A stretch of 64,000 nucleotides of DNA. Source: Streptantibioticus silvisoli (GTDB lineage Bacteria > Actinomycetota > Actinomycetes > Streptomycetales > Streptomycetaceae). The notes under the pieces were generated by a model. That model did no database searches. It was not told where the DNA came from and worked only from the letters and a program-made list of their open reading frames with translations. Below are positions 28,029-31,015 of this stretch, in pieces. Every line of letters begins with the position of its first letter. The first letter of the stretch is position 1. The position numbers and the translations under genes are program-made. The stretch spans positions 62,001 to 126,000 of the forward strand of contig NZ_JAAGKO020000004.1 in NCBI RefSeq assembly GCF_027947535.2, read 5' to 3'.

Positions 28029-28877
28029 TCAGGCGCCGGCCGGCTCCGGGCGGTAGCGCGAGACACGGAACGCCGCGGTCACCCGGACGACCGGCGGGAA
28101 CGCCTCGGCGCCCGCGACGTGTTCGGTGTGCCGGGCCGACGGGCCCATGCCGATCGCGTCGGCGGCGTGGCCCGGGGGCAGGTCCATCGCGTACGTCAGC
28201 GTGTCGCTGCCGGTGAGCCGGAACAGGCCGGAGCCGGTCAGCCCGCTCGCCAGCCGGTCCGCCTTGCCGGCCTCGACGTCGAGCATGCCGTCCCGCAGGG
28301 CGCGCAGTTCGCCGAGGTGGTCCGGTTCCGGGGTGACCACGACCAGTACGCCCTCCGGTGCCAGCACCCTGCGGTACTCGGCGGGGTTGCGGGGCGCGAA
28401 GACGTTGAGCAGTGCGCCGACCGCTCCGGTGCGGATCGGCAGCGGACGCCACAGGTCCCAGACGGCGGCCCGGGCCCGCGGGTGCGCGCGGGCGGCGCGG
28501 CGCAGGGCGAACTTCGAGATGTCCAGCCCCAGCCCGGTCGCCCCGGAGCACTCCGCCAGCACCGCCGCCAGGTAGTACCCGGTGCCGGCCCCGGCGTCCA
28601 GCACCGTGCCGCACTCCGCCGGTACCGCCGCCGCCACCGCCCGGGCCAGCGGCGCGTAGTGGCCGGCGGCCAGGAAGTCGGTCCTGGCCCGCACCATCTC
28701 GGCGCTGTCGGCGGTGCCGGGCCGGGCGTCCCCCGGCAGCAGATTGACGTACCCCTGCCGCGCGACGTCGAAAGTGTGGCCCGCGCCGCAGCGCAGTGAG
28801 CCTTCCCGCGCCGTCAGATCCTGCCCGCACAACGGGCAGACCAGCAGGTCGAATGCGTCCGGGATGGCGTCGTTCAT
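28029..28877 (-). CDS. RlmA/TlrB-family 23S rRNA (guanine-N1) methyltransferase
   Basis: 282 residues. An N-terminal zinc finger (CPLCGQDL, then CGAGHTFD; a C-x2-C and C-x3-H arrangement at residues about 14-36) followed by VARQGYVNLLPG is diagnostic of RlmA. The SAM site is VLDAGAGTGYYLA. Gram-positive members methylate G748 of 23S rRNA, and some confer macrolide resistance, but nothing here indicates resistance. ATG at 28877 was chosen; an in-frame ATG 18 nt upstream overlaps the TACGCT likely used as -10 box. Confidence 0.87.
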   Translation of the reverse strand: MNDAIPDAFDLLVCPLCGQDLTAREGSLRCGAGHTFDVARQGYVNLLPGDARPGTADSAEMVRARTDFLAAGHYAPLARAVAAAVPAECGTVLDAGAGTGYYLAAVLAECSGATGLGLDISKFALRRAARAHPRARAAVWDLWRPLPIRTGAVGALLNVFAPRNPAEYRRVLAPEGVLVVVTPEPDHLGELRALRDGMLDVEAGKADRLASGLTGSGLFRLTGSDTLTYAMDLPPGHAADAIGMGPSARHTEHVAGAEAFPPVVRVTAAFRVSRYRPEPAGA

Positions 28878-28930
28878 GGCGTCGCCAGCGTACACAGCCC
28901 ACCGGCGCCGCTGATCCGCCCGGCGGGCGA

Positions 28931-28946
28931 TGTTTCACGTGAAACA
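28931..28946. other. parS site 1 (ParB binding)
   Basis: TGTTTCACGTGAAACA is a perfect 16-bp palindrome and matches the canonical bacterial parS, including the Streptomyces core GTTTCACGTGAAAC. ParB loads here for chromosome segregation. Confidence 0.95.
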
Positions 28947-28960
28947 CGCACCAACCGCGA

Positions 28961-28976
28961 TGTTTCACGTGAAACA
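28961..28976. other. parS site 2 (ParB binding)
   Basis: A second identical TGTTTCACGTGAAACA lies exactly 30 bp after the first, in the gap between the RlmA-like gene and the ABC exporter. The flank GCGA is also duplicated, suggesting tandem duplication. Confidence 0.95.
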
Positions 28977-28994
28977 TGCCACCGCGGACATGAG

Positions 28995-29028
28995 GACGCC
29001 CCGCACCCGGAGCCGGGTGCGGGGCGTC
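28995..29028 (-). terminator. Terminator of the ABC exporter operon
   Basis: A perfect 16-bp stem (28995-29010 with 29013-29028) starting GACGCCCCGC lies 17 nt after the exporter stop. It lacks a T-tract, as usual for actinobacterial terminators. Confidence 0.75.
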
Positions 29029-29044
29029 GGGGCGGGGTGTGCGC

Positions 29045-31015
29045 TCAGCCCGATTCGGCGGTCTCGGCGACCGGTTCGGCGAACTGTGCGGCGTAGAGCC
29101 TGGCGTAGGCGCCTTCGGCGGCCAGGAGTTCGTCGTGCGTGCCCTGTTCCACGATGTCTCCGGCCTCCATGACGAGGATGACGTCGGCGTCGCGGATGGT
29201 GGACAGGCGGTGGGCGATGACGAAGCTGGTCCGGCCGGTGCGCAGGGAGGCCATGGCGTGCTGGATCAGCACCTCGGTGCGGGTGTCGACGGAGCTGGTG
29301 GCCTCGTCGAGCACGAGGATGGCCGGCTCGGCCAGGAACGCCCGCGCGATGGTGATGAGCTGCTTCTCGCCGGCGCTGACGTTGTTGCCCTCGTCGTCGA
29401 TGACGGTCTCGTAGCCGTCGGGCAGCGTGCGCACGAAGCGGTCGACGTGGGTGGCCTTCGCCGCCTCGACGATCTTCTCGTGCGTCGGCTCGTCGGCGCC
29501 GTACGCGATGTTCTCCGCGATGGTGCCGCCGAACAGCCAGGTGTCCTGGAGGACCATGCCGATGTTCTCGCGCAGTTCCTCGCGGGACATCGCGGCGATG
29601 TCGACGCCGTCCAGCGTGATCCGCCCGCCGGTGGTCTCGTAGAACCGCATGAGCAGGTTGACCAGGGTGGTCTTGCCGGCGCCGGTGGGTCCGACGATGG
29701 CGACCGTCTGACCGGGGGCGACCGACAGCGACAGGTCCTCGATCAGCGGCTTGTCGGGGTCGTAGGAGAACGCCACGTTCTCGAAGTCGACCTTGCCCCG
29801 TACCAGCGCGGGCCGCTGGGGCTCGGCCGGGTCGGGGTCCTGCTCGTCGGCGTCGAGGAGTTCGAAGACCCGTTCGGCGGAGGCCACCCCGGACTGCACC
29901 ATGTTGGCCATGCTGGCGACCTGGGTCAGCGGCTGGCTGAACTGCCGGGAGTACTGCACGAACGCCTGCACGTCGCCGATGGACAGCGAGCCGCTGGCCA
30001 CCCGCAGACCGCCGATGACGGCGACCAGCACGTAGTTGATGTTGCCGATGAACATCATCGCGGGCTGCATGACCCCGGAGATGAACTGGGCCCGGAAACC
30101 GGCCTGGTACAGCGCGTCGTTGTGCTCGGCGAAGGTCGCCTCGCTCTCCTGCTGCCGGCCGAAGACCTTGACCAGCGAGTGGCCGGTGTACATCTCCTCG
30201 ATGTGCGCGTTGAGCTGTCCGGTGGACGCCCACTGCTTGATGAACTGCGGCTGGGCCCGCTTGCCGATCCGGGCGGCGACCAGGATGGACAGCGGCACCG
30301 TCAGCAGCGCGACGACCGCCAGCAGCCAGGAGATCCAGAACATCATGGCCAGCACGCCGATGATGGTCAGGATCGACGAGACGATCTGGCTGAGCGTCTG
30401 CTGGAGGGTCTGGGAGATGTTGTCGATGTCGTTGGTGGCCCGCGACAGGGTCTCGCCGCGTGCCTGCTTGTCGAAGTAGCTCAGCGGGAGCCGGGCCAGC
30501 TTCTCCTCGACGTCCTTGCGCATTCCGAAGACCGCGCGCTGCACGACCCGGGTGGCGATCCTGGCCTGTATGAAGCCGGCCGCGGCGGCGCCGACATAGA
30601 CCAGCAGCACCCACAGCAGCACGATGCCGACCGAGCCGAAGTCGATGCCGTGGCCGGGGTGGACCCCGTGCATGGGGGCGACGATCGCCGCGATCTTGCC
30701 CTGGCCGTGGGCGCGCAGGTAGACGACCGCCTGCTGCTGGGTGATGCCGGACGGCAGCTGCCGTCCGATGACGCCGGCGAAGATCAGGTCGGTCGCCCTG
30801 CCGAGGACCTTCGGGCCGATGACGTTGCACGCCACGCTGACCACGGCCATCACGACGCCGAACAGCAGGACGATCCGTTCCGGGCGCAGCAGGCGCAGCA
30901 GCCGGCGGGAGGAGCCCTTGAAGTCCATGGACTTCTGGACCGGGGGACCGGCCATGTGGCGCATCGGCCCGCGGGCGACGGGCTCGGGACCCCTGCGGGG
31001 TGCGGGGGTGGTCAC
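29045..31015 (-). CDS. ABC exporter half-transporter (membrane plus ATPase), consensus Walker B
   Basis: 656 residues: a six-helix transmembrane domain (about 40-380) with a roughly 50-residue insertion near the first extracytoplasmic loop, then an ATPase with GPTGAGKTTLVNLL and Walker B AILVLDEATSSVD. The signature is altered to NVSAGEKQL. Together with the partner gene upstream, which has the reverse pattern, this gives one consensus and one degenerate ATP site, as in heterodimeric exporters (BmrCD, TM287/288). GGAGGG precedes the GTG start. Likely a multidrug or lipid exporter. Confidence 0.9.
   Translation of the reverse strand: MTTPAPRRGPEPVARGPMRHMAGPPVQKSMDFKGSSRRLLRLLRPERIVLLFGVVMAVVSVACNVIGPKVLGRATDLIFAGVIGRQLPSGITQQQAVVYLRAHGQGKIAAIVAPMHGVHPGHGIDFGSVGIVLLWVLLVYVGAAAAGFIQARIATRVVQRAVFGMRKDVEEKLARLPLSYFDKQARGETLSRATNDIDNISQTLQQTLSQIVSSILTIIGVLAMMFWISWLLAVVALLTVPLSILVAARIGKRAQPQFIKQWASTGQLNAHIEEMYTGHSLVKVFGRQQESEATFAEHNDALYQAGFRAQFISGVMQPAMMFIGNINYVLVAVIGGLRVASGSLSIGDVQAFVQYSRQFSQPLTQVASMANMVQSGVASAERVFELLDADEQDPDPAEPQRPALVRGKVDFENVAFSYDPDKPLIEDLSLSVAPGQTVAIVGPTGAGKTTLVNLLMRFYETTGGRITLDGVDIAAMSREELRENIGMVLQDTWLFGGTIAENIAYGADEPTHEKIVEAAKATHVDRFVRTLPDGYETVIDDEGNNVSAGEKQLITIARAFLAEPAILVLDEATSSVDTRTEVLIQHAMASLRTGRTSFVIAHRLSTIRDADVILVMEAGDIVEQGTHDELLAAEGAYARLYAAQFAEPVAETAESG

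Follow-up and report, generated by a model that had tools for sequence, protein, structure and literature searches.

The parS pair and the genes around it

The window analysed here is a stretch of 64,000 nucleotides from Streptantibioticus silvisoli (positions 62001-126000 of contig C65), taken from an 8.7-Mb assembly of 130 contigs; its GC fraction is 0.726-0.744. The sequence TGTTTCACGTGAAACA, the 16-bp palindrome of chromosomal parS, occurs twice in the window, at 28931-28946 and 28961-28976, with a start-to-start distance of 30 bp. The two copies are identical and perfect, as seen from the sequence, the palindrome length and a pattern scan against shuffles, and the second copy lies at the centre of an 18-bp palindrome (ATGTTTCACGTGAAACAT). 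The parS of Mycobacterium smegmatis is given as GTTTCACGTGAAAC in a table of PMC7022226. When the window was scanned for this pattern at up to two mismatches, only the two parS copies were found; shuffled windows yielded 0.07 matches on average, and none of the 100 shuffles contained two or more. At up to three mismatches no additional match appeared on the plus strand of the window, the pattern being its own reverse complement. The sequence and the shuffle-controlled scan thus confirm what a sequence-only reading had reported, namely two perfect parS sites exactly 30 bp apart. Its description of this distance as about three helical turns holds as an approximation (with 10.5 bp per turn, the distance amounts to 2.86 turns).

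The pair is intergenic, with the 3' end of an ABC exporter gene on one side and rlmA on the other. The rlmA gene (28029-28877, minus strand) encodes an RlmA-type 23S rRNA (guanine-N1)-methyltransferase, whose likely start, the ATG at 28877, lies 53 nt downstream of the closer edge of the parS pair. The product matches Pfam Zn_ribbon_RlmA above the cut-off (E = 9.3e-16) and also the NCBIfam models MyrA, ChrB and Erm(32), each below the cut-off. The upstream gene (29045-31015, minus strand) encodes an ABC exporter half-transporter with Pfam ABC_membrane and ABC_tran domains, and it stands in the same order beside RlmA in five relatives. After the ABC gene, a G+C-rich inverted repeat (28995-29028, minus strand), with 15-bp arms checked in the sequence and a 4-nt loop, is a possible terminator without a T run that would bound the intergenic region containing the pair. 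A scan of 28700-29200 for the sigma-70 promoter consensus and for terminators, the latter demanding a T run, found neither, and scans for RNAs and tRNAs in the window were likewise negative. A -10-like element (TACGCT/TAGCGT), recognised by eye, is found right before the rlmA ATG in six genomes (28877-28895 and L142-L146). The arrangement suggests that the rlmA transcript is leaderless and that the GTG at 28895 is not the true start.

An rlmA-like match was present in 48 other genomes, and in the 29 with a returned locus, which were those examined, no parS at up to one mismatch was found within 1.5 kb of rlmA. A search of 80 loci with flanks of up to 10 kb likewise revealed no parS at up to one mismatch. 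In five syntenic relatives with the ABC-ABC-rlmA order (G016, also part of the 29-genome set, G027, G025, G034 and G013), whose orthology in this region was judged by gene order and not by tree, no parS was detected at up to three mismatches over 19 kb; the same was true of G015, where rlmA is present without the ABC-ABC order. In G013, rlmA and the parA-side parS lie 88 kb apart on one contig, versus about 93 kb in the present genome. Judged from these sequences, the location of rlmA is therefore conserved and the parS pair is not. The simplest reading would be a gain of the pair in this lineage, with repeated loss as a possible alternative. The pair probably arose here, where new parS near the existing array are tolerated. 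Its absence in the relatives implies that it may add little.

The oriC region and the parS array

The dnaA gene is located at 116.8-118.6 kb of contig C46. On one side it is accompanied by dnaN (DNA polymerase III beta domains) and a RecF-like gene, and on the other by the genes of RsmG (GidB), a ParA-type protein and ParB. Two DnaA-box words, TTGTCCACA, were found between dnaA and dnaN at about 116.55 kb of C46, and one more beyond dnaA. A cognate ParA and ParB are thus encoded near oriC, with parB adjoining the ParA-type ATPase gene. The ParB protein contains ParB_N, HTH_ParB and ParB_C domains and a GERR motif, and it matches solved Spo0J/ParB chains (6sdk, E = 1.5e-48). Its top NCBIfam match was the Noc (nucleoid-occlusion) model, below the cut-off, and the ParB-family model scored above its cut-off. 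The position next to parA and oriC fits its identity as ParB. Since no gene other than parB matches ParB_N (PF02195) at E <= 0.001, no Noc paralogue was found in the genome.

Contig C46 ends at 125722, 139 nt past the parB stop. The start of C65 carries genes of an acetyltransferase, a thioredoxin, a pyridine nucleotide-disulphide oxidoreductase, which by position is thioredoxin-reductase-like, and a sigma factor. The two contigs are collinear with one contig of G013, on which about 375 nt separate the two alignments. The contig ends overlap imperfectly: C65:1-123 matches the parB 3' end and beyond at 89%, followed by 30 exactly matching nucleotides, and the final 78 nt of C46 have no match to the C65 start. 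L100:13499-13645 and L101:1-187 differ at 13 positions, and in the majority of these C46 has an A where C65 has another base. The 89% repeat of the parB 3' end at the C65 start probably reflects faulty assembly where the contig ends. C46 and C65 very probably adjoin just after parB; we infer this join, which the assembly does not contain, and with it the distance of the pair to oriC.

A genome-wide search revealed 21 perfect parS 14-mers, seven on C46 and 14 on C65, with none on the other contigs and no match in the genome for a reversed control pattern. About 0.003 perfect sites per genome would be expected by chance (72% GC, independent bases). Given the join, the 21 sites cover 279 kb over the two contigs in the origin-proximal region, with 16 on the right of oriC and five on the left. 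The same join puts the pair on the right of oriC and the dnaA-dnaN region, at a distance of about 100 kb, and 52 kb separates it from the preceding parS cluster, which places it outside the reach that a roughly 50-kb origin island would have. The sequence-only reading had put the window near oriC, where Streptomyces parS sites cluster, and both parts of this placement agree with our results and with PMC8743542. In that survey of 20 closed streptomycete chromosomes, the mean was 22.8 parS (range 11-65), of which 79.86% were right of oriC, although its counts come from a matrix that admits imperfect sites and not from exact matches as for our 21. The number of about 20 sites and the rightward bias seen here are those of a streptomycete array, and origin-proximal, right-biased arrays of this kind have already been published for streptomycetes (PMC8743542). 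By sequence and place, the pair thus belongs to the parS sites of a known type of array.

Neighbouring parS no more than 46 bp apart form seven pairs, versus 0.07 expected under uniform placement over the 279-kb span. The clustering itself is therefore non-random, and close pairing is a trait of the whole array. A single-mismatch parS, GTTTCACGGGAAAC, occurs once, at L104:6835 (C120:96834), on a contig without a perfect parS. Some parS lie at or within gene starts or coding frames, translating as VSRET or MFHVKH (L100:11489, just 5' of parA, and L101:3272, in a frame adjoining the sigma-factor gene).

Flanks and spacing of paired sites

From flanks that the two sites share, the pair had been read as a tandem duplication. 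The shared flank is real as far as the GCGAT 5' of both copies is concerned; over 20 nt, however, identity is just 9/20 upstream and 8/20 downstream, and these flanks overlap the neighbouring copy. When the two half-flanks of each of the 21 sites were read away from the 14-mer, positions +1 to +4 were A in 39, T in 26, C in 26 and G in 21 of the 42. The outward flanks of all perfect parS thus favour A-T-C-G, giving an extended consensus CGAT-parS-ATCG, and the GCGAT of both copies is this genome's extended parS consensus. With 10 nt taken on each side, 9 of 20 flank positions of the pair are identical, compared with a mean of 7.1 over site pairs in the same orientation; among all 210 pairs of the genome's own 21 sites, equal or better identity was found for 52 in the same orientation and for 99 in the better orientation. 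The likeness of the flanks is thus common among parS sites of this genome, with no unit similarity beyond the parS consensus. Tandem duplication is unsupported, since nothing in the flanks appears to call for it, and the shared GCGAT flank is probably not a specially selected feature.

Other sites in the genome differ in their surroundings. Three parS are the centres of longer perfect palindromes of 38, 28 and 26 bp (L101:13525-13562 on C65, L103:6173 at C65:191172 and L099:10150 at C46:100149); the remaining 18 palindromes reach 14-20 bp. Arms resembling those of the long palindromes, of the form GGGGCG(A/G)T-parS, are present in some parS pairs of other genera, among the matches listed; these are perhaps parS inside terminator-like inverted repeats. 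Two pairs on C65 with a spacing of 19 bp (L101:12748-12780 and L102:18999-19031) follow one design, GCGATGTTTCACGTGAAACA(CCA or GGG)TGTTTCACGTGAAACATCGC, in which the extended flank is confined to the outer sides.

The spacing of 30 bp had also been proposed to be special, as three turns that could promote cooperative ParB loading. The genome's own spacings of up to 46 bp are 19, 19, 30, 33, 34, 37 and 39 bp, which correspond to 1.81 to 3.71 turns. The suggested look at paired sites in relatives showed close pairs to be common. At least one parS pair spaced 16-46 bp is present in 43 of 121 family genomes, including this one (none for the reversed control pattern), and one spaced 47-77 bp in 42 of 121. 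Phasing was analysed on 75 of the 126 family pairs spaced 16-46 bp, namely those listed, contributed by 29 of the 43 genomes that have such a pair; the total of 126 is the sum of forward counts, and G032, for example, is listed with one of its three pairs. Pairs of 47-77 bp, some of which are the outer sites of triplets, did not enter this analysis. Exactly 30 bp occurred in 2 of the 75 pairs. Periods of 10, 10.5 and 11 bp gave P values of 0.08, 0.41 and 0.67 for these pairs, and of 0.26, 0.77 and 0.99 for a collapsed set of 60 pairs from which G111, G004, G034, G013 and G016 had been dropped as probable orthologues; none was significant, against a null distribution that is flat over 16-46 bp, as the observed spacings are not. 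A hump at 33-35 bp held 17 of the 75 listed pairs, some of them mutual orthologues, versus about 7 expected if flat, and 30 bp falls outside it.

Spacing also differs between sister species: of five orthologous groups that were aligned, four show differences of 1-8 bp (loci L152, L153 and L150; L156 and L157; L154 and L155; L158 and L159). In G025, G013 and G034, one group has spacings of 29, 33 and 35 bp, and a triplet has 34+35, 34+35 and 33+35 bp. The spacings are 33+18 bp in G016 versus 33+26 bp in G027, and 45 bp in G030 versus 44 bp in G004, whereas G111 and G135 both have 38 bp (L160 and L161). Apparent orthologues by position, which were not aligned, have the same spacing in G016 and G027 (18, 19 and 45 bp) and in G135 and G111 (36 bp), so spacing drift is not universal. 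For S. coelicolor ParB on a fragment with two parS, nucleation on both "may occur independently", according to PMC12207404. A limited search of open-access papers by title and the start of the abstract found none on helically phased parS pairs in Streptomyces. The varied spacings within the genome and the family, the lack of a significant period, the drift between orthologues and the S. coelicolor statement together disfavour a tuned spacing, and the exact 30 bp is probably not a specially selected feature. Helical phasing was accordingly rejected as a description of the pair.

Interpretation and comparison with known systems

We are confident that the pair represents two sites within the origin-proximal parS array at which ParB of the chromosomal ParABS system would nucleate. 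The site sequence, the genomic place, the domains and GERR motif of ParB and its match to Spo0J/ParB structures all argue for a standard ParABS system, of which the pair would most likely be an extra ParB-loading outpost. Binding, clamp loading, spreading and a function in segregation at the pair we infer from published work on other ParB proteins. Each 16-mer would load one CTP-bound ParB dimer, which would close into a clamp and slide into the flanking kilobases; ParB of S. venezuelae is reported to spread up to 2.5-3 kb (PMC12511625). The two adjacent sites would act as two loading points at one locus, giving roughly additive loading at an outpost on the right of oriC, about 100 kb away. 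The ParB complex formed there may join other complexes, recruit SMC and be moved or anchored by ParA. In an in vitro force assay, condensation increased with 7, 13 and 26 parS and was not seen with 1, 2 or 4, which suggests that two sites alone may do little; without force, one parS was enough for condensation (PMC8299390). PMC5815017 suggests that in Caulobacter a new parS is best tolerated close to an existing cluster, which would explain how outposts like this pair appear.

The alternatives differ in what they would make of the pair. It is quite unlikely that the pair is chiefly an operator, at which ParB bound 53 nt upstream of the rlmA start would modulate rlmA transcription and couple it to segregation or sporulation. 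The pair does sit in the interval that separates the preceding ABC gene from the predicted leaderless rlmA promoter, and ParB of Pseudomonas aeruginosa represses promoters adjoining parS3 and parS4, as reported in PMC5521831. However, the pair is upstream of the -10-like element and not over it, the consensus scan of the region was negative for a sigma-70-type promoter, and the five relatives that keep the junction without the pair argue against a conserved regulatory need. Very unlikely, in our view, is a reading in which the pair is a recently gained, lineage-specific outpost, 100 kb away from oriC, through which ParB would also influence the rlmA-type gene. If that influence were real, expression of an rRNA-modifying enzyme would follow the segregation cycle.

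We regard as extremely unlikely a tandem duplication whose 30-bp, three-turn spacing was selected for cooperative loading by ParB dimers on the same face. The identical sites, their common GCGAT flank, the seven close pairs in the array, the 33-35 bp hump, the P value of 0.08 for a 10.0-bp period in the uncollapsed set, and the orthologous groups that keep 38 bp exactly or are off by 1 bp are what this proposal can draw on. Against it stand the ordinary flank identity, the 1.81-3.71 turns among the genome's own pairs, the rarity of exactly 30 bp, P values reaching 0.99, the four groups with differing spacing (29/33/35 bp, 33 versus 34 bp within the triplet, 18 versus 26 bp and 45 versus 44 bp) and the independent nucleation suggested for S. 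coelicolor ParB. The chance is close to negligible that the palindromes are fortuitous or are sites of another DNA-binding protein, such as a Noc-like paralogue or an unrelated factor. ParB binding at the pair is a prediction, and Noc is the best NCBIfam match of ParB, though under the cut-off; but the 14-mer is identical to the parS in the table of PMC7022226, the genome encodes a single ParB_N-family protein and hence no Noc paralogue, and 21 perfect copies near oriC far exceed the chance expectation.

Taken as nucleation sites of the ParABS system, the pair and its array add one more origin-proximal parS array, from a genome that is the sole member of its genus among those compared and shares its family with Streptomyces sp. 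ICBB 8177. Paired parS in such arrays can be gained or lost, and their spacing can change from one related species to another. This suggests that exact spacing matters less than how many sites there are and roughly where they lie.

Among known systems, the multi-parS substrates of PMC8299390 also load ParB at closely spaced groups of parS, but they are engineered DNA with B. subtilis parS, and two copies alone gave no condensation in the force assay. The tandem parS of Caulobacter crescentus (sites 3 and 4; PMC5815017, PMC4368675) are likewise adjacent sites that form one near-oriC loading locus; however, Caulobacter has a single compact parS cluster about 8 kb from ori, whereas the array here extends over about 279 kb. 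The Streptomyces arrays described in PMC12207404 (S. coelicolor, 24 sites) and PMC12511625 (S. venezuelae, 16-17 sites) use the same 14/16-mer as the present genome, and the array here resembles them in having parAB next to oriC, about 20 sites and a majority of sites right of oriC. Unlike them, it includes a pair at the ABC exporter-rlmA junction, where the five syntenic relatives examined have no parS.
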